Assembly (NCBI GenBank): GCA_002705125.1
Contig: PAHQ01000042.1
Location: 26,786 to 45,665 of the forward strand
Length of the DNA: 18,880 bases
Direction of reading: 5' to 3'
From: Verrucomicrobiales bacterium
Lineage (GTDB): Bacteria > Verrucomicrobiota > Verrucomicrobiia > Verrucomicrobiales > DEV007
Both the position numbers and the translations under genes were made by a program. This document shows positions 984 through 16,961 of the stretch, one piece after another. The stretch's first letter is position 1. Each line of letters opens with the position of its first letter. The notes beneath the pieces are model-generated. The model was not told the origin of the DNA. It searched no databases and worked only from the letters and a program-made list of their open reading frames with translations.

Positions 984-2660
984 TTAAGGTAATGGAAAAC
1001 CTTTATTAAGACTAATGACCTTCAATCTGATTTTTTCAAGGGCTTCAGGGTTTTCCCTGTTTTCAAGAGCTTCATGAATAAATTCGGCAATCACTAACAT
1101 TTCTGATTCAGTCATGCCTCTTGTTGTAACAGCTGGAGTTCCAATTCTAATGCCTCCTGCTTTGAATGGACTTTCCGTGTCAAAAGGGATTGAGTTTTTA
1201 TTAACTGTAATGCCAGCTTCATCTAAAGCATGCTGTGCTATTTTACCATTAATTTTGTTAGGCCTAACATCTACAAGCATTAAATGATTTTCAGTACCAC
1301 CTGATACAATACGGTAACCATATTCTTTAAGCTTTCCGGCAAGTGTGTGAGCATTTTTAACAATCTGCTTTTGATAAATTTTAAAATCTGGTTTTAATGC
1401 CTCTCCAAAGCATGCCGCTTTAGCTGCGATTACATGCATTAATGGGCCACCTTGAACGCCTGGGAAAACCATGCTATCAATTTTTTTGGCCCAATCTTCA
1501 CCGCATAAAATAAGACCGCCTCTAGGGCCCCTTAATGATTTATGAGTTGTCGTCGTTATAAAATCAGCATAACCAACCGGCGAAGGATGTACTCCACCAG
1601 CAACAAGACCCGCAATGTGCGCCATATCGACAAAGAGTAAAGCTCCAACAGACTTTGCAATTTCAGACATTTTTTCGAAATCTATAATCCTCGGATAAGC
1701 TGAAGCTCCAGCTGTAATCATTTTTGGTTTAACTTTCTCTGCTTGAGCCTTGAGCTGATCATAGTCAATTTGCTCTGTATCCTCATTAACACCATACGAA
1801 GAAATTTCATAAAATTTCCCCGAAAAATTTGCCGGATGTCCATGTGTTAAATGTCCACCATGAGAAAGGTCCATTGCGAGTATTTTATCGCCATACTCCA
1901 AAGAGCTGAAATAAACAGCTGCATTAGCTTGTGATCCGGAGTGCGGCTGTACATTTGCATGATCTGCTCCAAATAACTCCTTTGCCCTTTCTATGGCTAA
2001 AGCCTCTGCTATATCAACGTTTTCACAACCTCCATACCACCTTTTCCCTGGATACCCTTCAGCATATTTGTTAGTCAGATGACTGCCCTGCAGGAGACGA
2101 ATGTTCTCACTTGCGAAGTTTTCACTAGCTATCAATTCAATGTTATTTTGTTGTCTCTCAATTTCTTTATCAACAGCTTCAGCAAGTTCAGGATCAACTT
2201 TATCTAGACTAGTTGTTGCAGGGTTAATTTTGTTAATCCTACGAACGTGTCGCTCGCCAGCGTTAAAATCGGCATTAATAAATGATTCCGTGATTTCTTT
2301 GGCGGTTTCTAATTTCATTCTTTGAGCGCCTAAGCAAAGAACGTTTGCATCATTATGAGTTCTTGTTAATGATGCATCACTAGGTTCATTTACTACAGCT
2401 GCTCTAATGTGAGGGTGCCTATTAGCCGCAATACTCATTCCTATACCAGAATGACAAATCAATATTCCTAGTGTTGCTTCTTCGTGTGCTATCAATCCAC
2501 TTAGTTCATGAGCATAATCAGGATAATCAGTGGATTCAGAGGAGTTAGTTCCAAGGTCTTTAATTTCATGGCCTTTCTCGATGAGGTGGGCCTTGAGAGA
2601 TTCCTTTAATTCAAAACCAGCATGATCACTGGCAATAAGTATAGGTAGTGGTTTTGACAT
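984..2660 (-). CDS. Fused ribose-5-phosphate isomerase B / serine hydroxymethyltransferase
   Basis: One uninterrupted frame of 558 codons carries two complete cytosolic enzymes. Residues 1-147 are RpiB (ribulose-5-phosphate/ribose-5-phosphate interconversion): SDHAGFELK near the N-terminus, the active-site segment [13 protein letters not shown] with the presumed catalytic Cys69, and the family's closing [11 protein letters not shown]. Residues about 155-558 are a full-length GlyA, which converts serine plus tetrahydrofolate to glycine plus methylene-tetrahydrofolate: [36 protein letters not shown], and TTTTHK with the PLP-binding lysine at 374. It ends with the usual NKGFPLP-type tail. Only about ten residues link the two, so neither half looks degraded. 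The phosphatase gene ends 10 bp upstream and zwf follows after 42 bp. In B. subtilis rpiB and glyA are close neighbours, a likely ancestral state before fusion. The RpiB loop has His70 where most family members have Gly. Both domain calls are very secure; the fusion could only be an artefact if a frameshift error removed an intervening stop. Confidence 0.95.
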
Positions 2661-3846: not shown

Positions 3847-4935
3847 TCAAGCCTTTGTAGGTGGTTCTACAGCTTTAAAATTTTGGTGAATATATTCCGC
3901 ATCTCGACAATTGAGCAGCGCATCATTAAGTGAAATGTGTCTATTAGTTAGAAGGTGTGCAAGGCTCTCATCAATAGTGTGCATACCTTCTTGGCTTCCG
4001 ATTTGGATTAATCCTACGATTTGCTCAAATTTTCTTTCAATCATGCATGCTCGAATTCCATGATTAATTCTCATGATTTCTGATGCCATTACTCTCCCAG
4101 GGTGATCCTGTCTCGCAATTAATCTTTGTGAAACAACGGCCTGTAGGCAATTTGATAGCTGAGTGATTATCATTTCCTGTTGATCGGCTGGAAATACATC
4201 TATCATTCGATCTAAAGATTTAGGAGCGTCTATTGTGTGGAGAGTGCTGATGACTAAGTGCCCCGTTTCAGCAGCTGTTATAGCAGTCCGTATCGTTTCT
4301 AAGTCACGCAATTCACTAACGACAATGATATCAGGGTCTTGCCTGAGAGCGGATCTTAATGCATTTGAGAAGCTGTGTGTATCAGGCCCCAATTCTCTTT
4401 GTTTAACAAGTCCATAACCATGATCAAAGACATATTCGATTGGATCTTCTATAGTGACTGCAACACATGATCTCTCTTTTAATATTTTTTGAATCATTGA
4501 TGCAATGGTGGTGGTCTTTCCAGCACCAGTGACTCCAGTGACTAAAATAAGTCCTTGCCTCAATGAGCATAAATCATTAACTGACTGTCCGTGTCCTAAT
4601 TGAGGAAGCTCAGGTATTTCTGTAGGAATGTAACGAAAAGCACCTTCAATTGATCCTCTCACATAGTGTGCATTTGCCCTAAATCTACCTACGTTTTTAA
4701 TTGATATAGAAAAGTCTAATTCTAGGTCTTCTTCGAGTCGCGCTCTTTGCGACTCTGATATCACGCCCATTACTAATTCTTTTGCTTCATCTGGACTGAT
4801 ATCGTAGTCTGCTAGAGCTTCGAGTGTCCCATTTATTCTGCATGCAGGCGGGGCATCTGCAGTGATATGAAGATCAGATCCTCCTCTGTCTCTAGTCTCA
4901 GTCAAGTAGTCGACGATATGTTTTTTACTGCTCAT
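3847..4935 (-). CDS. PilT/PilU-family type IV pilus retraction ATPase (second of a tandem pair)
   Basis: Hexameric secretion-type ATPase at the cytoplasmic base of a type IV pilus, expected to drive pilus retraction. At 362 residues it is close to P. aeruginosa PilT (344). In order: an N-terminal PAS-like domain with SDLHI and RINGTLEAL; Walker A GVTGAGKT at 134-141; Asp box TIEDPIEYVF near 161-170; Walker B DIIVVSELRD at 202-211; His box ETGHLVISTLHT at 223-234; and the IDESLAHLL segment near 321-329. In PilT the region before this is the AIRNLIRE helix; here it reads GIRACMIER (293-301). Walker A and Walker B deviate slightly (Ala for Ser, Ser for Gly) but keep the essential Lys, Thr and Glu. 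It starts 9 bp after the first ATPase gene. No pilin, PilB or PilC gene is in the window, so the target machine must be encoded elsewhere. Whether it acts as PilT or PilU cannot be told. Confidence 0.92.
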   Translation of the reverse strand: MSSKKHIVDYLTETRDRGGSDLHITADAPPACRINGTLEALADYDISPDEAKELVMGVISESQRARLEEDLELDFSISIKNVGRFRANAHYVRGSIEGAFRYIPTEIPELPQLGHGQSVNDLCSLRQGLILVTGVTGAGKTTTIASMIQKILKERSCVAVTIEDPIEYVFDHGYGLVKQRELGPDTHSFSNALRSALRQDPDIIVVSELRDLETIRTAITAAETGHLVISTLHTIDAPKSLDRMIDVFPADQQEMIITQLSNCLQAVVSQRLIARQDHPGRVMASEIMRINHGIRACMIERKFEQIVGLIQIGSQEGMHTIDESLAHLLTNRHISLNDALLNCRDAEYIHQNFKAVEPPTKA

Positions 4936-4944
4936 TTAAAAAAA

Positions 4945-5997
4945 TTAAGATATGCCTCTCATGGCTCTGTCGAAATCAGATTCATTACCTGATGCCGTTG
5001 CCGCTTCTTCTTGTGTCAAATGTCCCTTCTGAGTGGCTTCGACTAATGCATCCATGAATAGTTTGTTATTGGGGTTATCTCCTCGGCCGATGAAATCAAC
5101 AATTTCTGGTATTCTGGATTCACGTACATAATTTCTAATCACTCCAGTGTTTTCTAAGTGTTCTGTCACTAAATGGAGCCCTCCATAAGCAGATGGCAAG
5201 AGAACTTGGCAGCAAATGCCTATCAACAGATTAGAAAGTAATTGCAGCTGACTTTCTCGGTCTTGGCTGGGGAAAAGGTTTGTTAGTCGTTCTATCGTTT
5301 CTGAGACGTTGGCACTATGCAAAGTTGCTAAAACTAGATGCCCAGTTTCTGCAGCTTGCAGAGCTATTTTTGCGGTTTCGGGATCTCTTATCTCCCCAAG
5401 AAGAATGACATCAGGCGCTTGTCTCAGTGAGCTTCTTAGTCCTCTTGCAAAAGAATCTGTGTCAGTATGAACCTCTCTTTGAGTAAAAAGTGATTTTTTA
5501 GATTCAAATAAGTACTCTATTGGATCTTCAATGGTAACAATGTGTTTTGATGAGTTTTGGTTAAGCCATTCAAGGCTGGATGCTAGAGTGGTTGATTTAC
5601 CAGATCCAGTTGGTCCAGTAATTAGGACAAGACCGGAGGGAGCAGAGACCCATTTGGTTAGAAGTTCAACCGGAAGGCCTAAACTTTCGATGCCAGGTAT
5701 TTCGGTGTTAATTTGTCTCAGCACAGCTCCGAGATTTCCAAGGTGCCGGTGCAAGTTGACTCTAAACCTTACGCCATTATGAGCAACATAACTAGAATCT
5801 CTGTCGCCATCATATTCTGGATCCGCACCACACCTTTTCCAGAAGGCGATCATGTCTTCAGATTCGATAGGGTCATCCCCAGCGATCATGAGTTGCCCGT
5901 TGACTTTCATTCTAGCCACGTGCCCTGCACTCAGAAAGATGTCACTCGCTTTATTTTCAAAAGCAGCCTTTATAAGGGATTCAATCATTGAACTCAT
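4945..5997 (-). CDS. PilT/PilU-family type IV pilus retraction ATPase (first of a tandem pair)
   Basis: 350-residue secretion ATPase related to PilT/PilU, with an expected role in type IV pilus retraction and twitching motility. Motifs in order: SDIFLSAG N-terminal domain; Walker A GPTGSGKS at 128-135; TIEDPIEYLF near 155-164; Walker B DVILLGEIRD at 196-205; His box ETGHLVLATLHS at 217-228; and VIRNYVRES (286-294) in place of PilT's AIRNLIRE. The Walker motifs are more canonical than those of the next gene. The end of the protein (about 330-350) is short and acidic/polar with no PilU-like extension. It is the first gene of a six-gene minus-strand run, preceded by about 100 bp containing a small inverted repeat. 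Two tandem retraction ATPases recall pilT-pilU pairs of proteobacteria, but by eye the two are clearly diverged, so this is not a recent duplication. ATG at 5995-5997 chosen; no Shine-Dalgarno sequence. Confidence 0.92.
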   Translation of the reverse strand: MSSMIESLIKAAFENKASDIFLSAGHVARMKVNGQLMIAGDDPIESEDMIAFWKRCGADPEYDGDRDSSYVAHNGVRFRVNLHRHLGNLGAVLRQINTEIPGIESLGLPVELLTKWVSAPSGLVLITGPTGSGKSTTLASSLEWLNQNSSKHIVTIEDPIEYLFESKKSLFTQREVHTDTDSFARGLRSSLRQAPDVILLGEIRDPETAKIALQAAETGHLVLATLHSANVSETIERLTNLFPSQDRESQLQLLSNLLIGICCQVLLPSAYGGLHLVTEHLENTGVIRNYVRESRIPEIVDFIGRGDNPNNKLFMDALVEATQKGHLTQEEAATASGNESDFDRAMRGIS

Positions 5998-6097: not shown

Positions 6098-7633
6098 TTA
6101 TCTTTTGGCATAATCTTGGTTCGACTCAAGTTCCTCCTTATCAGGAGTTTCACTTGATATTCCATCATCGGGAATTTTTAATCCAGCTATCCAGGCTACA
6201 GCATTGAGGCCGATCTTTCTAAAATTGTCATCTGCCCAATTATTATGAACATGTGCTCCTGTAAAACCGAAGCCTCTACCTGCCCCATTCTCATTTTCTG
6301 TAGCCCATACGACGTGCTGCTTTTCGTTCCGTTCAAGAACAGAAGCCCTTACGTGGGGATTTCCACTGTGGGCTCCATCACGTCTTTTAAGGGTTTCAGG
6401 TCCAGGGAGTGCACTAAGTATTGGGGTAATACCTTTCATTTCATCTCTAAAACGCATATGGTAATACCATTCATCATTTATCTTGAACGGCTTCACTCCA
6501 TTAGCAACTGGGTGATCTGGGAAAGTCTTGAATTCTGGGGTCCAGTGAGGGTTTACCGACCAGTGAGCCTCAAAAAATCCTCCCATCCAATCTAGGAACT
6601 TATCACCACCTTGATTGCCTTTTGGTATCTCAACAGCATAGTGAATAGAGCCAACTCCCATACCTCTTTTCTGGTGGTAGTCTATTTGTCTCAAGTGGAA
6701 TTTTGCAAAGTGAGACCCTCCTCCAGTACAAAACATAATTAGCGCGTCTGCATTTTGCATTGCAGTTGGGTCCTGAGGCCAGCCGTCTTTATATAAACTA
6801 GTGATAATCTTATCTCCATAGTGAGCTCTTAGCCTCTTTGCGAGAAGTATGTTTCCTGCATTGTGCTCATGAGCCCCCCAGCCGTGAGATCTTGAGCCTG
6901 CATAAAAACAAATCTTTTTAGCGTCTACAAGCTTAAGCCTCTTTAACATAATATCCTTAAATTGAACTTTCATTGGAGGCCCTGCATGAAGTTGTAAAGC
7001 CAGTATGCCTTGTCGTCTTTTCTTGGGACCATTATCCGTCACTTCAGCCATGAGCTTTCCATTGATAGATTGTTTTATATTATAACCCTTTGCAATAATA
7101 TGGTATTCATTCCAATCACCTTTCTTTATAACCTTATTTAGTTCCTTAGGATCACCAACAGCTTCCCCTTGCGTTTTTTTACCTTTATCGTCAACAGTGA
7201 CACGCTGCCCTCTTTTAGCAAAGACGCCGCCAAACTGTTCGCCATAAACTGTCCCACTCCAAGTGTCACCAGCCTCAAAATCTGCTTGGTAACCACCGAC
7301 TCTCCATTCATCAGGACCATTATCTAATTTGAAACTTCTTATTTGTATGCCTGAATTGCCTGCGTCTATTTTGAATTTTAGTTTAAGTTCAAAATCATCA
7401 AGTTCTCCAGCTTCCCAAATGATAAATGTATTTCCTTTTGTAGGATTATTTGAAGTGGTTTGACCGGTAATGGCCCCATCCTTAACGCTCCAAAATTTAG
7501 GGTCTCCATTCCAGTTTTTAAGACTCTTGCCATCAAAAATAGGCATAAAATCATTATCACCTTTTGCGTGATGATCAGCGAATAGGCTTGAGCTTGTAAG
7601 GCTCAAAATTGTAAGTATTGTGCGAATTTTCAT
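6098..7633 (-). CDS. Secreted DUF1080 (3-keto-disaccharide hydrolase-like) / ThuA-like two-domain protein
   Basis: A 511-residue exported protein. Residues 1-19 (MKIRTILTILSLTSSSLFA) are a signal peptide with likely cleavage before Asp20. Residues about 28-233 are a DUF1080 domain, a concanavalin-like beta sandwich now linked to hydrolysis or elimination of 3-keto glycosides; markers are FMPIFDGKSLKNWNGD, NSGIQIRS and the WNEYHIIAKG strand. Residues about 239-486 are a ThuA-like domain (class I glutamine-amidotransferase-like fold) starting ICFYAGSRSHGWGAHEH and continuing through ALIMFCTGGGSHF and FPDHPVANGVKPF. ThuA proteins are tied to 3-keto-disaccharide use in rhizobia. The tail (487-511) is short and polar. 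This combination points to extracytoplasmic processing of oxidised sugars and is a type very common in Verrucomicrobiota and Planctomycetota. The gene stands alone, with about 100 bp to the PilT genes, and diverges from a methyltransferase-like gene. Substrate unknown. Confidence 0.9.
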   Translation of the reverse strand: MKIRTILTILSLTSSSLFADHHAKGDNDFMPIFDGKSLKNWNGDPKFWSVKDGAITGQTTSNNPTKGNTFIIWEAGELDDFELKLKFKIDAGNSGIQIRSFKLDNGPDEWRVGGYQADFEAGDTWSGTVYGEQFGGVFAKRGQRVTVDDKGKKTQGEAVGDPKELNKVIKKGDWNEYHIIAKGYNIKQSINGKLMAEVTDNGPKKRRQGILALQLHAGPPMKVQFKDIMLKRLKLVDAKKICFYAGSRSHGWGAHEHNAGNILLAKRLRAHYGDKIITSLYKDGWPQDPTAMQNADALIMFCTGGGSHFAKFHLRQIDYHQKRGMGVGSIHYAVEIPKGNQGGDKFLDWMGGFFEAHWSVNPHWTPEFKTFPDHPVANGVKPFKINDEWYYHMRFRDEMKGITPILSALPGPETLKRRDGAHSGNPHVRASVLERNEKQHVVWATENENGAGRGFGFTGAHVHNNWADDNFRKIGLNAVAWIAGLKIPDDGISSETPDKEELESNQDYAKR

Positions 7634-9633: not shown

Positions 9634-12600
9634 CTAAGATGCTGGAACCGTAAGTCCGAGGCACCAGAGAACGGCGTTGCGGTAGATTCTCTGGACGTTA
9701 GGATTTTCAAAGCTTTTGCGGGCACCGATAGTGGTTGCGACGGCGCGGCGGTTTTCTTTGCTCTTAATCGTCCAGACTATAGGATGAGGGCTGCCTATGA
9801 GACGTCCTTGGTCTTCAGTCGATAAAACCATGGCGTGGTTGTGGCCACCGATTTTTTTAAAAGTAGCAGATTTGCGACCTTTAAGACCTTGCCCAATCAT
9901 GAGGGGTGTGCATTCGATGCTGAGGGGATTGACTGCATAGTGAAAGTCGGGGGTCCAGAAGCGGGGTTCGATGCCTTTCATGATTGGATGTTTTGCTGCC
10001 ATAACGTAATTGAGTTGACTAGAATCGTGACCGTGGTGCCCGCGGTAAGGTGTCCCAAAGTGACGGTTAGGGAATGCTCGGTTTTCGTCTGCTAGTTTGG
10101 ATTCCTTGGGGAAATCAAAGAGGTGGGTAGTTGTGCGTACGGCGATATAGGGCTTGTGGCTGAGAAATTGATCTAGTGCTTTGTATTGGGATTCTTCGAG
10201 ATTCACAAATCGAAGGGAGAGAATCAAAAGATCAACCTTCGTTAGGTGCTTGGAGAGATCCTGAAATCGATGGGGATTTGTGCTGCGGTTAAGTTCGAGA
10301 TGAGTGATTTTGAGTTGGTGATCTTCCTCTAGCTTCTTCCCGATTTCACTCAGGGACCTCCGTGTTCCATATTCAGGTTCCCCGGTGAGAATAAGCACTC
10401 TCTTATTAACTTTATTTGATGTTGAGGATGTTTTGGTATCATCGACAATCATTGTTCCTTGCATGATGCGCCAGTGTCCAGGAACTGTGCAGAGAAATGG
10501 ATACGAGCCAGGTTTCTTCGGAGTGATAAAGCGGAGAGCCACCTCCTTATGAGGATTTGCCATCGGAGTTGCAAAAAGAACTTCAGGAAGATCTGGAATC
10601 CAATCTCGTTCTATGGCTTTCGGGTTGGCTAGGATATCGTCAACGGCCGCACCGACTTTTATCAGTGAATTGGGAGAGCAGATGACGAGATTGTGTTGAA
10701 TAGAGTCGGGGTTGTCCAAACGAAGTTCAACCGGGGTGTTCGCTGGGACGCGTATGGATGTTTGATTGAAACGCAGTTGATCGGGGACAGTGGCAATTTC
10801 CACCGGTACCAATTGTAGGGATTGAATTCGAGCAACAATATCGGGAACTTGGTGGATGTTAGCGATTGACGTGAGAAGCTTGGAAGCAAGCTTAAAGGAG
10901 GTGGATCCACGTTTTTCCACGGGGGTTTTCTTTAGGGTGACAAGATGAGTATCCATAAGAGCGAGGGCCTCTTTAGCCGGCCAGCTCTCACGGGGACGGT
11001 TAAGAATAGCCTCTGCTGCTGTTGCAGTGAGCTCAGGGCTAAGGAATTTTTTGGCGAGAATGGTAAATATTTTGGCATCATTTCCAGGTATATGGCCGAG
11101 GCAAAAAAGAGCTGCTTCTTGGTTGTCTTTTGAAGAAGAAAGAGCTTTTTGGGCAGGATCGAGATAGGTAGCTTTAATTTCGAGTGAATCGATTCGGGCG
11201 ATGGACCGAAGTGTGTCTGGATCGAGAGGAAAAGAAGTGATTTGACCGGATCTTAGTTTTGCAGCGAAGGCTGCTTGCCTTATAGATGAGTTTCTCGATT
11301 TCGATAACGGACTGAGAACGCTGATGGAAGAGACCTTGGTTGAGTCGAGGATTTCAAGCCAATCTCTAAGGGAGAGACGTTCTTCTCGGTCGAGTTGTTC
11401 GATGATCTCAACTAACACCTTCTCTTTTGTTTTGGATTTTTCCTCAGCTAAGTGGTTAAGAGCCTTAACCCTTAGCTTGATATCTAGGTTGGGGCGGCGG
11501 ATGATTACATTCAATACACGTTCATCGAGAGGAAGGTCTGCAAGTTTCTCTAGAGGAATCGTCATAGGGTGATTTTCAAGAGTGGAGCCCAGGGATTTAC
11601 GGGCATTATTGATAGCGAATTTGAGATAGCTGTCCTGAGGATGCTCGTTTACTAAATCAAGCACTACGACCGCAATAGATGGATCGGCCCAAGTTGAAGA
11701 GACGACAGTTTCGAGGCGGACCTTGGGATGTTCGTCATTCGCGAGGCGAGAGAAATGGCTGTGAGCGTTCGGAAGATCTTCACACCAATGTCGCAGAAGA
11801 TGTGCGGCAGCCGCTCGGCTTTGATGGTCACGGTGGGTAGAAACTTTTTGAAAGAGTTCCTCGTTGATCCAACCTCTTTGTTGATGGAGCCAAAGAGCTT
11901 CGGTGAGATGGTGGGGATAGTTGACTTCTGAAGGGTTGAGTGAGATTAACCATTTTTTTAGTGCTGGACGCAGAGTTTCTTCTGAGAGATTCCAAAGTGC
12001 GCGTCGAGCACGGTATCGGTTGCGGTCTTCGTAGGCTTTGAGGAGGTCGAGTAATTCTTCAACGTTAGCGTCCACAATTTTGGCGGGTTTGTCGAGCGGT
12101 CGATCTTTCCAGGTAACTCTCCAGATTCGTCCTTTCCTTGAGTCGCGTCGTTCATCACGAAGAGAATATTGCATATGTCCTAGGACTGGATTGTACCAGT
12201 CGGCAACGTAAAGGGCGCCATCAGGACCAAGCTGAAGGTCGACTGGAATACATGCTTTGTTTTGGGCTTCGAATACCTTGCCGAGGCGTTTGTGATCATA
12301 TGTTGTTCCTTTATCTGTCCAATCATGGATAAGAACGCCCTGAAAATTCTTGTATTGGTTAGTGAAAACTTTGCCCTGGAACTCGTCAGGCCAATGCCTA
12401 CTCGAAATAAATTCTTGGCCGCAGGTACGGTTATCACGGTTTCCGTAATTGGCGTTGGCAACGTTACCGGACTCAGGTTGATTGATAAGTGATGCGTTGT
12501 TATGACGAGCAACATAGAGATGTTCTCCCCACCGATTGATCGCATAGCCCCAAGGATTCCCTCCGGGAGGGAGCCGAGAAACAATTTCCAAGCGATGAGT

Positions 12601-14136
12601 TCGCGGGTCAAAACGGTAGATGGCATTGTCCTTGCTGCGACGAGGTCCATAAATGGTTTCTACCTGAGTGTTATGAAATACACTTTCTTGCATATAGAGC
12701 CCTCCGCCTGGTCCCCAAACGAAGTTATGTATGGCATGGTGGCAATCTTCGCTTCCAAAACCGTGCAAAAGGATGGTCTCTTTATCGGCCTTATTGTCTC
12801 CATCTGTATCCTCGAGAAAAACAAGATTTGGCTCCTGTGAAACATAGATTCCATTCTTGCCGAACTCGAAGCCGAGTGGCAGGTAGAGGTTTTCTGCAAA
12901 AATAGTGCGTTTGTCGGCTTTACCGTCTTGATCAGTGTCTTCAAGAATAATAATCTGATCGTTGGTATTGACTCCCGGAAGTGCGTGCGGGTATGAGGGC
13001 ATGGTTGCAACCCAGAGGCGACCCTCAGCATCAAAATTTATTGAAACTGGATTACGAAGCTCAGAAAATTCTTGCTCTGATGCAAAGAGTTCCACTTGGA
13101 AGCCTTCTGCGATCTCGAACTTGGCTCTTTCTTGAGCAGGTGTTAGTGATGGAGAGGTTCCTCCTCGTTTACTTGGGAGCGTAGAGGGAATTTCAACTGT
13201 GGAAGAATCGTCGATCTTGGTGGGAAGGTCCTCGCCACGGGCTGCTTTCCAGATTCGTTGATCTCGAAGGCTGGTCATTTGCAGAAGTTTTTTTCGCTCA
13301 AGAGGAAAGTTGACTGTACCGTAAGGGTTTTTTCGGTCGCCATGAATATAGAAGCTATTCACGGTGCGGTACCAATCAAAGAAAGTATCATTCTTTTCCA
13401 TTACTTCGGCTCTAATTTCATTGAGAGGTGCCTCAGCAGGTAGAGGAGCAAAGATTTGGTTTGGAAGAATTTTAGATGCTAGTTTTATGTATCCCTGTGA
13501 GGTAAGGTGAATGCCGTTAATTGTATAGTTCGTCTCCTTACCCTTTTGATACAACTTTTGGGAGGCGGAGTAGAGATTAACAAAATGGATTCCGAGTGAA
13601 TTTGCAACACGCTCCATTGTATTTGTGTATAAAGAAAGTAAGTGATTCCGTGTGGTAGTATTGGGTACGGTGATGCCTTCACATGCGAGTGGGGAGTAAA
13701 GAACGATCTTAGGAGAAGAAAAATTGTTGTAGTTTTTGCTTTGTAATTCTTTGAGAAAACTCGTCAGATTACTTTCGAATCGAGTGATTCCTTGATTTCC
13801 CTCGTAGTCCCAAGTTTCGTTGAAGCCATAGCAGGCTAGAATTACATCGGCTTTTGCTTCGAATAGATAGTGGTGGATGTCGCCGAAATCTTTGGGTCGA
13901 GGGCGTAAGGTAATAGTATCTGCTGACCAGGCGAGGTTACGAATAACAAGGTTGTGTTTTGGGTAGCGCGCGTGTAGCCGGCTTTCAATTTCTCCGAAGT
14001 ACTGCATTCGCTCTGCGAAAGTGTTACCTATCCACACGACATGATTACCTCGCTTTAGTTCGAGGGATGCTGCCTCGGTTGTATTGGTTGAAAAAAGAGC
14101 AAGTAGATAGGGGATGAGGATGCAGCGAGAAAACAT
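9634..14136 (-). CDS. Secreted multidomain protein: SGNH-like, PVC 'membrane-bound dehydrogenase' propeller, helical repeats, azurin-like cupredoxin, ThuA
   Basis: A 1500-residue exported protein; signal peptide about 1-23. Residues about 28-235 resemble the SGNH-hydrolase domain of Planctomycetes/Verrucomicrobia proteins (GFNE 104-107, NGIH 207-210), but the GDS position reads IGNTF, so esterase activity is doubtful. Residues about 335-680 form a beta-propeller like PQQ sugar dehydrogenases (the Pirellula/Verrucomicrobium membrane-bound dehydrogenase family: FEIAEGFQVELFA, GRLWVATMPSYPH, NPWGYAINRWG, LGPDGALYVADWYNP). It contains two Ca-loop-like repeats, DTDQDGKAD and DTDGDNKAD. Residues about 690-1100 look like HEAT-type helical repeats. 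Residues about 1110-1232 are an azurin-like copper domain with likely ligands His1148, Cys1216, His1221 and Met1225 (FLCTVPGHWRIMQGTM). Residues about 1243-1500 are a ThuA domain. There is no CxxCH haem motif, although such proteins usually have a cytochrome c domain. The gene is markedly richer in G+C than its neighbours. Expected job: periplasmic oxidation of a sugar or polyol with copper electron transfer; substrate unknown. Confidence 0.9.
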   Translation of the reverse strand: MFSRCILIPYLLALFSTNTTEAASLELKRGNHVVWIGNTFAERMQYFGEIESRLHARYPKHNLVIRNLAWSADTITLRPRPKDFGDIHHYLFEAKADVILACYGFNETWDYEGNQGITRFESNLTSFLKELQSKNYNNFSSPKIVLYSPLACEGITVPNTTTRNHLLSLYTNTMERVANSLGIHFVNLYSASQKLYQKGKETNYTINGIHLTSQGYIKLASKILPNQIFAPLPAEAPLNEIRAEVMEKNDTFFDWYRTVNSFYIHGDRKNPYGTVNFPLERKKLLQMTSLRDQRIWKAARGEDLPTKIDDSSTVEIPSTLPSKRGGTSPSLTPAQERAKFEIAEGFQVELFASEQEFSELRNPVSINFDAEGRLWVATMPSYPHALPGVNTNDQIIILEDTDQDGKADKRTIFAENLYLPLGFEFGKNGIYVSQEPNLVFLEDTDGDNKADKETILLHGFGSEDCHHAIHNFVWGPGGGLYMQESVFHNTQVETIYGPRRSKDNAIYRFDPRTHRLEIVSRLPPGGNPWGYAINRWGEHLYVARHNNASLINQPESGNVANANYGNRDNRTCGQEFISSRHWPDEFQGKVFTNQYKNFQGVLIHDWTDKGTTYDHKRLGKVFEAQNKACIPVDLQLGPDGALYVADWYNPVLGHMQYSLRDERRDSRKGRIWRVTWKDRPLDKPAKIVDANVEELLDLLKAYEDRNRYRARRALWNLSEETLRPALKKWLISLNPSEVNYPHHLTEALWLHQQRGWINEELFQKVSTHRDHQSRAAAAHLLRHWCEDLPNAHSHFSRLANDEHPKVRLETVVSSTWADPSIAVVVLDLVNEHPQDSYLKFAINNARKSLGSTLENHPMTIPLEKLADLPLDERVLNVIIRRPNLDIKLRVKALNHLAEEKSKTKEKVLVEIIEQLDREERLSLRDWLEILDSTKVSSISVLSPLSKSRNSSIRQAAFAAKLRSGQITSFPLDPDTLRSIARIDSLEIKATYLDPAQKALSSSKDNQEAALFCLGHIPGNDAKIFTILAKKFLSPELTATAAEAILNRPRESWPAKEALALMDTHLVTLKKTPVEKRGSTSFKLASKLLTSIANIHQVPDIVARIQSLQLVPVEIATVPDQLRFNQTSIRVPANTPVELRLDNPDSIQHNLVICSPNSLIKVGAAVDDILANPKAIERDWIPDLPEVLFATPMANPHKEVALRFITPKKPGSYPFLCTVPGHWRIMQGTMIVDDTKTSSTSNKVNKRVLILTGEPEYGTRRSLSEIGKKLEEDHQLKITHLELNRSTNPHRFQDLSKHLTKVDLLILSLRFVNLEESQYKALDQFLSHKPYIAVRTTTHLFDFPKESKLADENRAFPNRHFGTPYRGHHGHDSSQLNYVMAAKHPIMKGIEPRFWTPDFHYAVNPLSIECTPLMIGQGLKGRKSATFKKIGGHNHAMVLSTEDQGRLIGSPHPIVWTIKSKENRRAVATTIGARKSFENPNVQRIYRNAVLWCLGLTVPAS

Positions 14137-14262: not shown

Positions 14263-15105
14263 TTATGAGTCTGTTGAGGGTTCTTTATTTTTAAATTCTG
14301 GATAAAAAGGATTCATTTCTTTTTCCTCTTTAATTGATGTAATTGGCCCATGCCCTGGACATATTACAGTATTATCAGGTAGAGAGAAAATATGTAGCCT
14401 ATTTGTTTTTAATGCATCTTGATATGACACCATGCCGCCGCCCATTGAGCCGGCAAAAAGTGCATCTCCTACGATTGCCACAGGTCGATCTAATCCATTA
14501 ATGAAGTATGTTAGTCCACCTATTGAGTGTCCATGTGTTAAATATGCCGTTCCAGAGAGATTGCCTATTTGAAATTGATGGCCACAATTAATCAAAATTG
14601 CCCCATCTAGAGGTTCTCTTGAGGAAACATATACATCAGCTTTAGGGTAATTTTTTATCATCTTATCCAGATCTGCGATGTGATCATTATGAGTATGAGT
14701 TAGATAGATTGAAGTTATTTCAAGGTTTCTAGATTTTGCTTCTTTCCTTAAATTTTTGGAATCTGATCCTGTATCAAAAGCTGCAGCAAGCCCAGTTGAT
14801 TGGTCCCATACCAAGAAAGAATTAACCATCATATCATGCCACTTAGAATTAAAATTTTTTAAACCATGAAGAGAAACGTCTCTAGGTCTCCAAGATTTTT
14901 TTCCAGATATTAGAAGCGATGCTGAATCAAGTTGTAAGTGGGGGGCAATTGAGCGCACTACCGATTCCTCACATTTACCACTTAATAATTCTTTAATTTT
15001 GATTTCCGGTATATCAGCAAGATTAGCTAATTGCTGAATTGAAATGCCCATGCCTCTCATTGCCTTACTTACAATATCTTCAAGAAAATCTTCAATACTT
15101 ATCAT
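14263..15105 (-). CDS. HTH-like domain fused to a glyoxalase II-type metallo-beta-lactamase-fold hydrolase
   Basis: 280 residues, probably cytosolic. Residues about 19-62 (GISIQQLANLADIPEIKIKELLSG and following) read like a Cro/C1-type helix-turn-helix with the usual LA.....P...I..L.SG spacing. Residues about 85-275 are a metallo-beta-lactamase fold with metal ligands HTHNDH (His137, His139, Asp141, His142), His193 in YLTHGHSIGG, Asp214 in GDALFAGSMGG and His252 in CPGHGP. The closing GHGPITSIKEEKEMNPF matches the hydroxyacylglutathione hydrolase/YcbL group, whose members hydrolyse thioesters; a persulfide dioxygenase is a less likely alternative. It is the last gene of the Moco run, 22 bp after fdhD. 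The front domain could be a DNA-binding regulator or a degenerate fold used for dimerisation; I cannot tell. ATG at 15103-15105, no Shine-Dalgarno sequence. Confidence 0.82.
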   Translation of the reverse strand: MISIEDFLEDIVSKAMRGMGISIQQLANLADIPEIKIKELLSGKCEESVVRSIAPHLQLDSASLLISGKKSWRPRDVSLHGLKNFNSKWHDMMVNSFLVWDQSTGLAAAFDTGSDSKNLRKEAKSRNLEITSIYLTHTHNDHIADLDKMIKNYPKADVYVSSREPLDGAILINCGHQFQIGNLSGTAYLTHGHSIGGLTYFINGLDRPVAIVGDALFAGSMGGGMVSYQDALKTNRLHIFSLPDNTVICPGHGPITSIKEEKEMNPFYPEFKNKEPSTDS

Positions 15106-15127: not shown

Positions 15128-15931
15128 TTAGCTCTGTGTATATAGGTTCATGGTGTTGTTACGAAGAAAACCTATTAGATTTTGATTAGATTTTCTTGCG
15201 AAATCTACTGCTAGTGAACTTGGAGCTGATATTCCAGCTACAGTAGGGATTCCGGCAGCCAAAGATTTCTGCATGAGTTCAAAAGAAATTCGGCCACTCA
15301 ATAACAGAGTGTGATTTGATAGGGGAAGTTTATCGTAGAGTAATGCAAATCCAATCACTTTATCCAATGCGTTGTGTCTACCCACATCTTCACGAATGAT
15401 TATAATTTCTCCGTTTTGATCAAAGAGAGCACTTGCATGCAATCCACCCGTTTTTTTGAATGTTTCTTGCGCAGACAATAGCTTTTCAGGCATATCCAAT
15501 ATTTTTTTTTCTATGATATCATTTCTTTTTTCGAGTTTTGGAAATTCCATCATTGCTGATTCGATGGTGGCTTTTCCGCAGATTCCACAACTTGATGATG
15601 TATAAACGTGTCTTGTTAGGTTTTTAAAATCAAATTCGGTCCCTTTTGTTAAAATGATGTCTACATAGTTTCCTGTTTCCTCACTATCGTTCGCTCGACT
15701 AAGGCATTCTGATATTTCAAAAATTTCTTTAGAATTTGTTATTACCCCTTCGCTTAGTAGAAAGCCGGCAGCTAGCTCTTTATCATTTCCAGGAGTTCGC
15801 ATAACAATAGCGACGCTTTTGCCTTCAACTCTTATCTCAAGAGGTTCCTCAACTGCTACCGAGTCTTCAATAAGAATTTCCTCATTTTTTTGGATTTTTC
15901 TTAGATGAATTTTCTTTGAAGGTTCAGCCAT
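15128..15931 (-). CDS. fdhD: Formate dehydrogenase accessory sulfurtransferase FdhD
   Basis: FdhD passes sulfur from a cysteine desulfurase to the molybdenum cofactor, giving the sulfido-ligated form needed by formate dehydrogenases, in the cytosol. The protein has 267 residues, the normal length. The redox/sulfur-carrying loop is SSSCGICGKA with Cys115 and Cys118, and the strongly conserved REDVGRHNALDKVIG follows near 188-202, then LLSGRISFELMQKSLAAGIP and APSSLAVDFA near the end, all typical of FdhD. Its start lies inside the end of mobA (8-bp overlap), so translational coupling is likely. Its presence implies a formate dehydrogenase or related molybdo/tungsto enzyme elsewhere in the genome; none is in the window. 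Very secure. Confidence 0.97.
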   Translation of the reverse strand: MAEPSKKIHLRKIQKNEEILIEDSVAVEEPLEIRVEGKSVAIVMRTPGNDKELAAGFLLSEGVITNSKEIFEISECLSRANDSEETGNYVDIILTKGTEFDFKNLTRHVYTSSSCGICGKATIESAMMEFPKLEKRNDIIEKKILDMPEKLLSAQETFKKTGGLHASALFDQNGEIIIIREDVGRHNALDKVIGFALLYDKLPLSNHTLLLSGRISFELMQKSLAAGIPTVAGISAPSSLAVDFARKSNQNLIGFLRNNTMNLYTQS

Positions 15932-16481
15932 TATTTTGGTAGTTTAGGTTTTTAAAGAAATGTAATTCAGAATCTCCAATGGGTCGTTCTTTGAGGAACC
16001 TTTCTTGGATACCTTCATGAACAACATCTTGCATTCTAAATTTTTTCAGACTTAGATTTCTTTCAGCTAATGGGAGCATGCTTCTGGGGTAGACAGCAGC
16101 TAGTGGTTCGGTCATACCATTTTTATGAACAGGTACAGTGCCGCAACCGGCGTAAATTAATTCACCAAGGAAGTTTATAGAAATATTTGGTAGGTCTACC
16201 GCTAGTATTAGTATTCTATCAGCTTTAGTTGCATTAAGAATATCAACTATTCCTCTGAGTGGCCCTTGATCCTTAACTGAATCGACAATAATTTTGTGGT
16301 GAGTATTGAAGCTTTGATTTTCATTGCTTGAGATTATTATCTCAGAGGGCATTAATTGGCTCACTTTTTCAACTTGGTCCTCCCACAAAGTAGTGTTCTG
16401 GATTTTGTGAAAAGCCTTATCTGATCCAAATCTTTTAGATTTTCCTCCAGCAAGAATAGCTGCTGCAAAAGTTCCATTCAT
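15924..16481 (-). CDS. mobA: Molybdenum cofactor guanylyltransferase MobA
   Basis: Attaches GMP from GTP to Mo-molybdopterin to make the guanine dinucleotide form of the cofactor used by DMSO-reductase-family enzymes, including formate dehydrogenases. 185 residues, near the usual 190-200. The nucleotide-binding signature AAILAGGKSKRFGSDKAF occupies about residues 7-24, followed by DQGPLRGI (about 71-78), the metal-binding AVDLPN near 94-99 and TEPLAAVYP near 124-132. It begins 3 bp after the MOSC gene's stop and overlaps fdhD, so the three are almost certainly one message. The pairing of MobA with FdhD is a common arrangement. No Shine-Dalgarno sequence upstream. Confidence 0.95.
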   Translation of the reverse strand: MNGTFAAAILAGGKSKRFGSDKAFHKIQNTTLWEDQVEKVSQLMPSEIIISSNENQSFNTHHKIIVDSVKDQGPLRGIVDILNATKADRILILAVDLPNISINFLGELIYAGCGTVPVHKNGMTEPLAAVYPRSMLPLAERNLSLKKFRMQDVVHEGIQERFLKERPIGDSELHFFKNLNYQNNG

Positions 16482-16484
16482 TTA

Positions 16485-16961
16485 TTAAGCTGAGCGGTCT
16501 GTGTGAAGGCGGCCACTGGTTAGTATTTTGGCTCTTAATCCGCCTCTTCCTTTCATTGCATTTTCTGCCCCCTCTGCGACGACACCATTCATCCAGTAAC
16601 AAGGGGCTGCTTCTTGTGTGCCCAGAAAATCTATACCTTGTATATTGAATTTCTTATTGATTAGTGAATTTAAATCAACCCCACTAGTGATAACATTTCT
16701 TCTAAAAACTGAAGGTGAAACGTCAGTTAATTTAAAATTTGTACAAATGTCTTTGTATACCTCCAGGGAAAAAAATGTAATTTGTCCTTTGTAGTCCTCT
16801 TTATAATTATGAAAACGGTCGCCAATAATACCTTTACCGGCCTCACACTCCACGCTATCAAGCTCAATCATGGGATTACTACCTGGCTCTTTTCCATGAT
16901 GACCATAGAAGTTGTGATCATCAGAAATATATATATTATGAATAGTAATTTCGTCTAACAT
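16485..16961 (-). CDS. MOSC-domain protein
   Basis: A 158-residue stand-alone MOSC (molybdenum cofactor sulfurase C-terminal) domain. Family features: GKGIIGDRFHNY near 42-53, the FRRNVITSGVDLNSL block near 86-100, FNIQGIDFLGTQEAAPC with the conserved Cys121, and GRGGLRAKILTSG near 138-150. MOSC domains are thought to bind and deliver sulfur or Moco to enzymes; stand-alone members such as YiiM and YcbX reduce N-hydroxylated compounds. Placement directly before mobA (3-bp gap) and fdhD supports a Moco role. It starts 12 bp after the acyltransferase gene. The N-terminal 35 residues carry an unusual His-rich HNFYGHHGKEPGS. Family call secure, exact role open. Confidence 0.88.
   Translation of the reverse strand: MLDEITIHNIYISDDHNFYGHHGKEPGSNPMIELDSVECEAGKGIIGDRFHNYKEDYKGQITFFSLEVYKDICTNFKLTDVSPSVFRRNVITSGVDLNSLINKKFNIQGIDFLGTQEAAPCYWMNGVVAEGAENAMKGRGGLRAKILTSGRLHTDRSA

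Follow-up and report, generated by a model that had tools for sequence, protein, structure and literature searches.

A cupredoxin attached to a verrucomicrobial propeller protein of the PVC "membrane-bound dehydrogenase" family, and haem in its place among relatives

The locus and its principal gene

The window, by which we mean the whole 18,880-nucleotide stretch analysed here, contains a gene of 1500 amino acids at 9634..14136 on the minus strand; the frame as read from the window agrees with a preliminary description of this DNA, which had left the strand unsaid. Judged by eye, residues 1–23 (14068..14136) are a probable signal peptide, a hydrophobic stretch followed by TEA-AS, and because of it the protein is probably secreted or periplasmic. 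There follow, in this order toward the C terminus and all on the minus strand, an SGNH/GDSL-like domain (residues 27–232, 13441..14058; PF13472, E 1.2e-8), a DUF7133/TIGR02604 beta-propeller identified by profile matches (residues 340–687, 12076..13119), a HEAT-like region (residues 692–1106, 10819..12063), an auracyanin/azurin-type cupredoxin recognised by both sequence and profile matches (residues 1112–1231, 10444..10803), and a ThuA domain (residues 1244–1494, 9655..10407) whose PF06283 score of 33.7 bits, against a cut-off of 33.4, is marginal. The propeller scores 225.6 bits with TIGR02604 (curated cut-off 122.2, E 1.2e-66) and 227.9 bits with PF23500, the DUF7133 model (cut-off 27, E 3.3e-67). 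Though the HEAT-like region reaches only 16.7 bits with PF13646, below the cut-off of 27.7, the same model is recorded for many relatives of the protein. As had been noted before, the 1500 residues contain no CxxCH motif; nor does any of the six frames of the whole window.

The gene was recovered, at 79%, in one of nine other same-genus genomes, several of which are incomplete. A misplaced contig as the source of this unusual gene was considered and rejected: the window's rpiB-glyA gene has a 94% identical counterpart in a genome of the same genus, and therefore the contig fits its genome. That frame (984-2660, minus strand, 558 amino acids) fuses RpiB (ribose 5-phosphate isomerase B) to serine hydroxymethyltransferase, and near full-length matches in one frame were found in 15 of the 18 genomes searched, its own included; the fusion is therefore ordinary for the order. 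Also on the minus strand are two adjacent frames for PilT-like ATPases (3847-4935, by a T2SSE match, and 4945-5997, by eye), a metallo-beta-lactamase fold protein (14263-15105; PF00753) whose N-terminal part looks helix-turn-helix-like by eye, and adjoining FdhD, MobA-like and MOSC genes (15128-16961) that have the look of a small molybdenum cofactor cluster. We saw no conserved operon: 13 other genes of the window were tried by tblastn at 1e-10 against 16 related loci, many of them short, and not one was recovered. Across 12 verrucomicrobial loci, an Exo_endo_phos gene with an APH-type kinase occurs in six, a CBM20-like gene in five and a GFO/IDH oxidoreductase in three.

Copper and haem on one propeller family

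The cupredoxin had been described as azurin-like, with four named residues as type 1 copper ligands, and closer examination bears this out, with the refinement that, among solved structures, auracyanins are closer to it than azurin proper is. For residues 1111–1231, E values are 8e-14 with auracyanin B (1ov8), 5e-12 with auracyanin A (2aan) and 4e-5 or weaker with azurins, and a profile of the family matches 2aan at 1.5e-23 and 1ov8 at 2.8e-23, its H, C, H and M columns aligning with those of the solved auracyanins. The residues are present where they had been placed: His1148 (10693..10695), Cys1216 (10489..10491), His1221 (10474..10476) and the axial ligand Met1225 (10462..10464), all read on the minus strand and identified by sequence and family profile. 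We take these to correspond to azurin His46, Cys112, His117 and Met121, respectively, and the protein thus has the type 1 set H, C, H, M with azurin spacing. In an alignment of the window fragment with 73 of the best 120 listed homologues, 74 sequences in all, neither the four ligands nor the Asn that follows the first His vary. On the auracyanin matches and the invariant ligands, the domain is a real cupredoxin, far beyond chance, and very probably a type 1 copper site. It shares with auracyanins A and B and with azurin the ligands and their spacing, the C-T-[VF]-P-G-H-x3-M loop and the Asn after the first His, but those proteins are stand-alone electron carriers, whereas the cupredoxin of the window is one part of a multidomain protein. 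Furthermore, the azurin equivalog model TIGR02695 gives the window protein 22.5 bits, below its cut-off of 105.1; by sequence, then, the domain is a relative of azurin and not azurin itself.

Of 8000 proteins scored in a search with residues 330–1240, 1428 reached E <= 1e-3, and the best 120 of these were examined together with the window protein. In this set, which is biased because the query contained the cupredoxin, 120 of 121 proteins carry a cupredoxin with an intact C-x4-H-x3-M, the sole exception (P0030, 1043 amino acids) stopping in the HEAT region. A CxxCH motif occurs in 22 of the 121; in P0027 it is a chance match within the propeller, and in the other 21 it always lies downstream of the cupredoxin. 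Among these are three close relatives of the window protein, P0028, P0029 and P0040, in which the motif comes after ThuA; TIGR02603, the model of the haem domain, matches them with E values of 1.5e-15, 7.2e-15 and 7.1e-16, respectively, all short of its curated cut-off. The same model matched all five of the 21 proteins that were tested with it, P0049 over the cut-off and P0076 below it. Source names in the list of the best 120 include Verrucomicrobiota, Luteitalea, Dyadobacter, Larkinella and a Gemmataceae bacterium, and the JGI entry name "glucose/arabinose dehydrogenase/azurin" also appears there, so annotators have already met this fusion. Entries of that kind share with the window protein the propeller, the HEAT-like region and the cupredoxin in the same order, but among the 121 proteins ThuA is present in only 33 and the SGNH part in 48, and CxxCH follows the cupredoxin in 21. 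Among the papers listed from the open-licence literature we found nothing on a fusion of azurin with this dehydrogenase propeller, and a single one that names TIGR02604.

With a haem-type propeller as the seed there were 7959 matches among 8000 scored, and of the best 120 examined, 118 have CxxCH after the propeller, two have neither module and none has a cupredoxin; an N-terminal ThuA is present in 63, of which 62 also have CxxCH after the propeller.

The comparison of cupredoxin and haem attachments that the preliminary description had called for finds both modules on one propeller family. In the window's own genome (2.98 Mb, 83.7% complete), TIGR02604 matches 25 frames at E <= 1e-3. Six of these carry a cupredoxin, nine have CxxCH after the propeller and two before it (11 with CxxCH in all), eight have neither module and none has both; two of the eight are cut by an end, and for one, on contig C52, GSDH protein is the better description. 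Counting only the 18 frames over the curated cut-off, the corresponding figures are five, seven, zero, six and zero. The window propeller was also searched in 57 genomes of the order, of which 43 matched, and every third of the best 118 rows from outside the own genome, ranked by likeness to the window, was sampled. In the resulting 40 stretches, with 41 propeller frames, there are 11 cupredoxins, 27 haem modules, three frames that are cut and undecided, and no frame with both. Ten of the 27 haem frames have the order ThuA, SGNH, propeller, HEAT, haem, that is, the parts of the window protein with ThuA at the opposite end and haem for copper. More generally, the PVC-type (TIGR02604/DUF7133) haem proteins resemble the window protein in the propeller, the HEAT-like region, the frequent presence of SGNH and ThuA parts and the residues of a putative pocket; they differ in having haem instead of the cupredoxin and in that their ThuA, where present, is N-terminal.

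These counts qualify two earlier statements. That the family normally bears haem holds for 27 of 41 frames in the order sample, but in the own genome CxxCH is absent from 5 + 6 of the 18 frames over the cut-off, so in practice the motif is no defining trait of TIGR02604. Likewise, copper does stand in the place of haem, in that the cupredoxin follows the HEAT region where those 27 of 41 frames have CxxCH, but the idea of a unique replacement is rejected, with 120 of the 121 examined proteins carrying the domain.

Some loci of the window's genome may divide these parts among separate frames. On the window's own contig, three adjacent minus-strand frames (L024, contig C40, within the segment 10000-26785, at 15483-22416) encode a 614-residue cupredoxin protein, a short protein with a weak propeller and a protein with CxxCH and a weak propeller, which together may be the copper, propeller and haem set in divided form. 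Elsewhere in the same genome (G000), a separate CxxCH frame lies directly upstream of a contig C16 propeller that has neither module (L027, C16:44156-47602), and another lies directly downstream of the cupredoxin-propeller of contig C41 (L022, C41:10286-16033); from these adjoining frames, some outlets may be separate proteins.

It is informative to place the modules on trees of the propeller. A quick tree of 90 propellers, labelled as copper, haem, both or neither, requires 12 label changes, whereas shuffled labels average 36.7; counting starred branches alone, and with a warning about long branches, there are at least six changes for copper-only, four for haem-only and three for both. On a more careful tree of 64 propellers, the presence of copper needs four changes and that of haem nine; each change may be a gain or a loss, and either state may have come first. 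Two sister pairs with 100/100 support join the classes directly: own-genome frames C101 (copper) and C22_4629 (haem), a pair on a long stem, and L141 (copper) and L147 (haem), of which L141 is cut at its C-terminal end and so could carry a haem too. Also on the careful tree, P0028 and P0029, which have copper and haem together, fall in the window's supported group of six. On the evidence of these counts and trees, a single propeller family has copper and haem as alternative modules, exchanged more than once. Two unrelated one-electron carriers on a propeller that has changed little are best read as interchangeable electron outlets, and the exchange hints at a plug-in way to drain electrons from a putative oxidation. 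It also bears on the idea that the cupredoxin, joined to a protein without redox function, is a copper store, a sensor or a periplasmic copper chaperone, for which nothing in the analysis spoke specifically: such a role would have to accommodate an intact type 1 site with azurin spacing, auracyanins as the nearest solved relatives and the exchange with haem, and we consider it very improbable.

The propeller, its putative pocket and the cofactor

The preliminary description had the propeller oxidising a substrate and its electrons leaving through copper, and for this the fold offers a distant precedent. The propeller profile is colinear with the aldose sugar dehydrogenases (GSDH; E 1.1e-13, probability 98, 264 columns, 20% identity); an initial local alignment was shifted between blades and was set aside for later colinear ones on a broader alignment. 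His466 (12739..12741, minus strand) aligns by profile with the catalytic His of these PQQ enzymes, which we take to be H144 in sGDH, and is conserved in 74 of 74 aligned sequences and in all 60 copper-class and all 38 haem-class propellers; N527 falls on the Asn of the NP motif and is kept. Searches of solved structures with propeller profiles returned mostly NHL-type repeats; 2g8s came up at 2.6e-7 in one search and at 0.04 in the other. The reference for the colinear alignment, a GSDH-type aldose dehydrogenase (L060, G019:C22), matches solved 7cdy at 2e-85 and 2g8s at 1e-84. The N-terminal part of this reference protein matches cytochrome c chains.

The residues that we presume to bind PQQ and calcium in sGDH (R228, a Gly-Pro stretch, K377, R406 and R408, in what we take to be its numbering) are for the most part missing. 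With the equivalences resting on one profile alignment at 20% identity, the place of R228 is Ala or Gly in 60 of 74 sequences, the calcium-binding Gly-Pro stretch has no counterpart, the place of K377 is Lys in 22 of 74 (the window protein among them), that of R406 is Arg in 52 of 74 and Ile in the window protein, and that of R408 is Val or Ile in all 74. Of these places, on that alignment, the window protein keeps K377 only. Therefore a standard PQQ enzyme is not indicated, and a standard PQQ site is rejected despite the retained catalytic His and NP Asn. Likewise, PqqE was found in none of the 57 genomes of the order at 1e-40, a weak result as no control genome matched, and in the own genome it gave one weak partial match far below the cut-off. 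The fuller form of the earlier proposal, in which the propeller is a PQQ-dependent sugar dehydrogenase and copper replaces the usual cytochrome acceptor, draws on the colinear GSDH match and the two retained residues, and PQQ could be imported; set against it are the unconserved R228, Gly-Pro and R408 equivalents, the uneven retention of K377 and R406 and the absence of PqqE matches, and we think it quite unlikely. The window family thus shares with the aldose sugar dehydrogenases and sGDH (PF07995, for example 2g8s and 1c9u) a colinear propeller, the catalytic His and the NP motif, but differs in having only about 20% identity and in lacking most PQQ and calcium residues.

What the family does conserve is a putative pocket of its own, made up of D464, H466, N527, W529, D646, W647, H654, R660, R664, R670 and R673. 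Each is unchanged in at least 56 of the 60 copper-class rows, from which own-genome frame C101 (copper) was left out, and in at least 36 of the 38 haem-class rows. Hence the part of the earlier proposal in which electrons leave an oxidising propeller through copper fits the repeated exchange of copper and haem on a conserved propeller; the standard PQQ pocket is the part that is not indicated.

Substrate, accessory domains and the proposed electron outlet

Only one assayed TIGR02604 member was found in the open-licence literature, and neither an oxidation by, nor a cofactor for, any member. This protein, Lac161_ORF7, is a TIGR02604-HEAT_2-cytochrome c protein from a Chthoniobacter-like clone; in the accessible part of the paper, its purified form is reported as a beta-galactosidase that hydrolyses lactose with release of glucose and a Km of 1.8 mM (PMC5342196). 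According to its authors, it has the TIGR02604 propeller and HEAT_2 region, as does the window protein, but it is a haem version and its reported activity is lactose hydrolysis (PMC5342196). The release of glucose from lactose makes a sugar substrate plausible. It also lends weight to a different reading, in which the propeller is a glycoside hydrolase or lyase with no net exit of electrons and the copper or haem module serves in binding, anchoring or protection. The mostly missing canonical PQQ residues and the eight of 25 own-genome propeller frames with neither redox module would suit such an enzyme. However, copper and haem repeatedly take one place and keep their metal ligands, a pattern difficult to account for unless redox work is involved, and we regard the hydrolase or lyase reading as unlikely.

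A possible further clue lies about 2 kb downstream of the main gene, where a PF06439/DUF1080 3-keto-disaccharide hydrolase domain is fused to a second ThuA (6098..7633, minus strand). In the accessible part of one paper, one DUF1080 (PF06439) protein is a 3-ketotrehalose hydrolase, another is proposed to hydrolyse 3'-ketolactose, and an endo-xanthanase is also noted within the family (PMC9007349). The nearby fusion, taken together with these 3-keto-sugar hydrolases (PMC9007349), suggests by analogy that ThuA may have a role with 3-keto-sugars. Work on 3-keto-glycosides in verrucomicrobia was not found in the open-licence literature.

The SGNH-like and ThuA parts had both been recognised earlier, and both are present, the ThuA marginally so; for the SGNH part, the name promises more than its residues do. 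Hydrolases of the SGNH superfamily have a catalytic Ser in block I and a catalytic Asp in block V. The window protein reads GNT at the GDS position and NGIH where DGxH would be, and among the proteins matched by motif search when the 121 were scanned, the place of the Ser is Thr in 46 of 48 and that of the Asp is Asn in 46 of 46. With Thr and Asn where the catalytic Ser and Asp are expected, an active SGNH hydrolase is rejected, and the part is therefore probably not an ordinary hydrolase. Single-sequence searches found no solved relative for either the ThuA or the SGNH part.

Our preferred reading, to which we give a probability of roughly 0.58, is that the window protein, probably secreted, is an oxidoreductase of the PVC "membrane-bound dehydrogenase" family whose propeller electrons exit via the attached copper domain. 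The propeller, a distant relative of the soluble aldose dehydrogenases, would probably oxidise a sugar or glycoside at a pocket containing His466. From there, electrons would pass to the type 1 copper domain, which may in turn hand them to an acceptor in respiration, for instance a CuA oxidase; the window's genome encodes a subunit of such an oxidase. The copper domain would thus do the job of the haem domain in sister proteins, with some members having both in series, while ThuA probably acts on the oxidised sugar and the SGNH part probably has a carbohydrate-binding role and not that of an ester hydrolase. What the sequences themselves show are the domains, the ligands, their conservation and the repeated exchange; the oxidation, the direction in which electrons flow, the substrate, the acceptor and the parts played by ThuA and SGNH are inferred. 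Counting against a copper outlet are the own-genome frames with neither module (about a third), the report of the sole assayed relative as a hydrolase in the accessible part of its paper (PMC5342196), the failure to find redox activity of any member in the papers searched, the loss of most PQQ and calcium residues of sGDH together with the weak PqqE result, and the catalytically altered look of the SGNH part.

One can imagine a more elaborate version, which we put forward only tentatively and think improbable as a whole. Here the family would be a plug-in redox system of its own, in which a glycoside is oxidised at a cofactor site that is not of the classic PQQ kind, the outlet is exchangeable (type 1 copper, haem c, or the two in series) and ThuA, in the same polypeptide, takes the 3-keto product further; on this view, what was reported for Lac161_ORF7 as "beta-galactosidase" activity would be an oxidation with subsequent elimination and not ordinary hydrolysis.

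With 25 frames matching this propeller family in the window's genome alone, the question of what the propeller does is of some consequence. The exchange of copper and haem on one conserved pocket lets sister proteins be compared for the function of the propeller, and such a comparison could show whether the choice of metal follows the supply of iron or copper.
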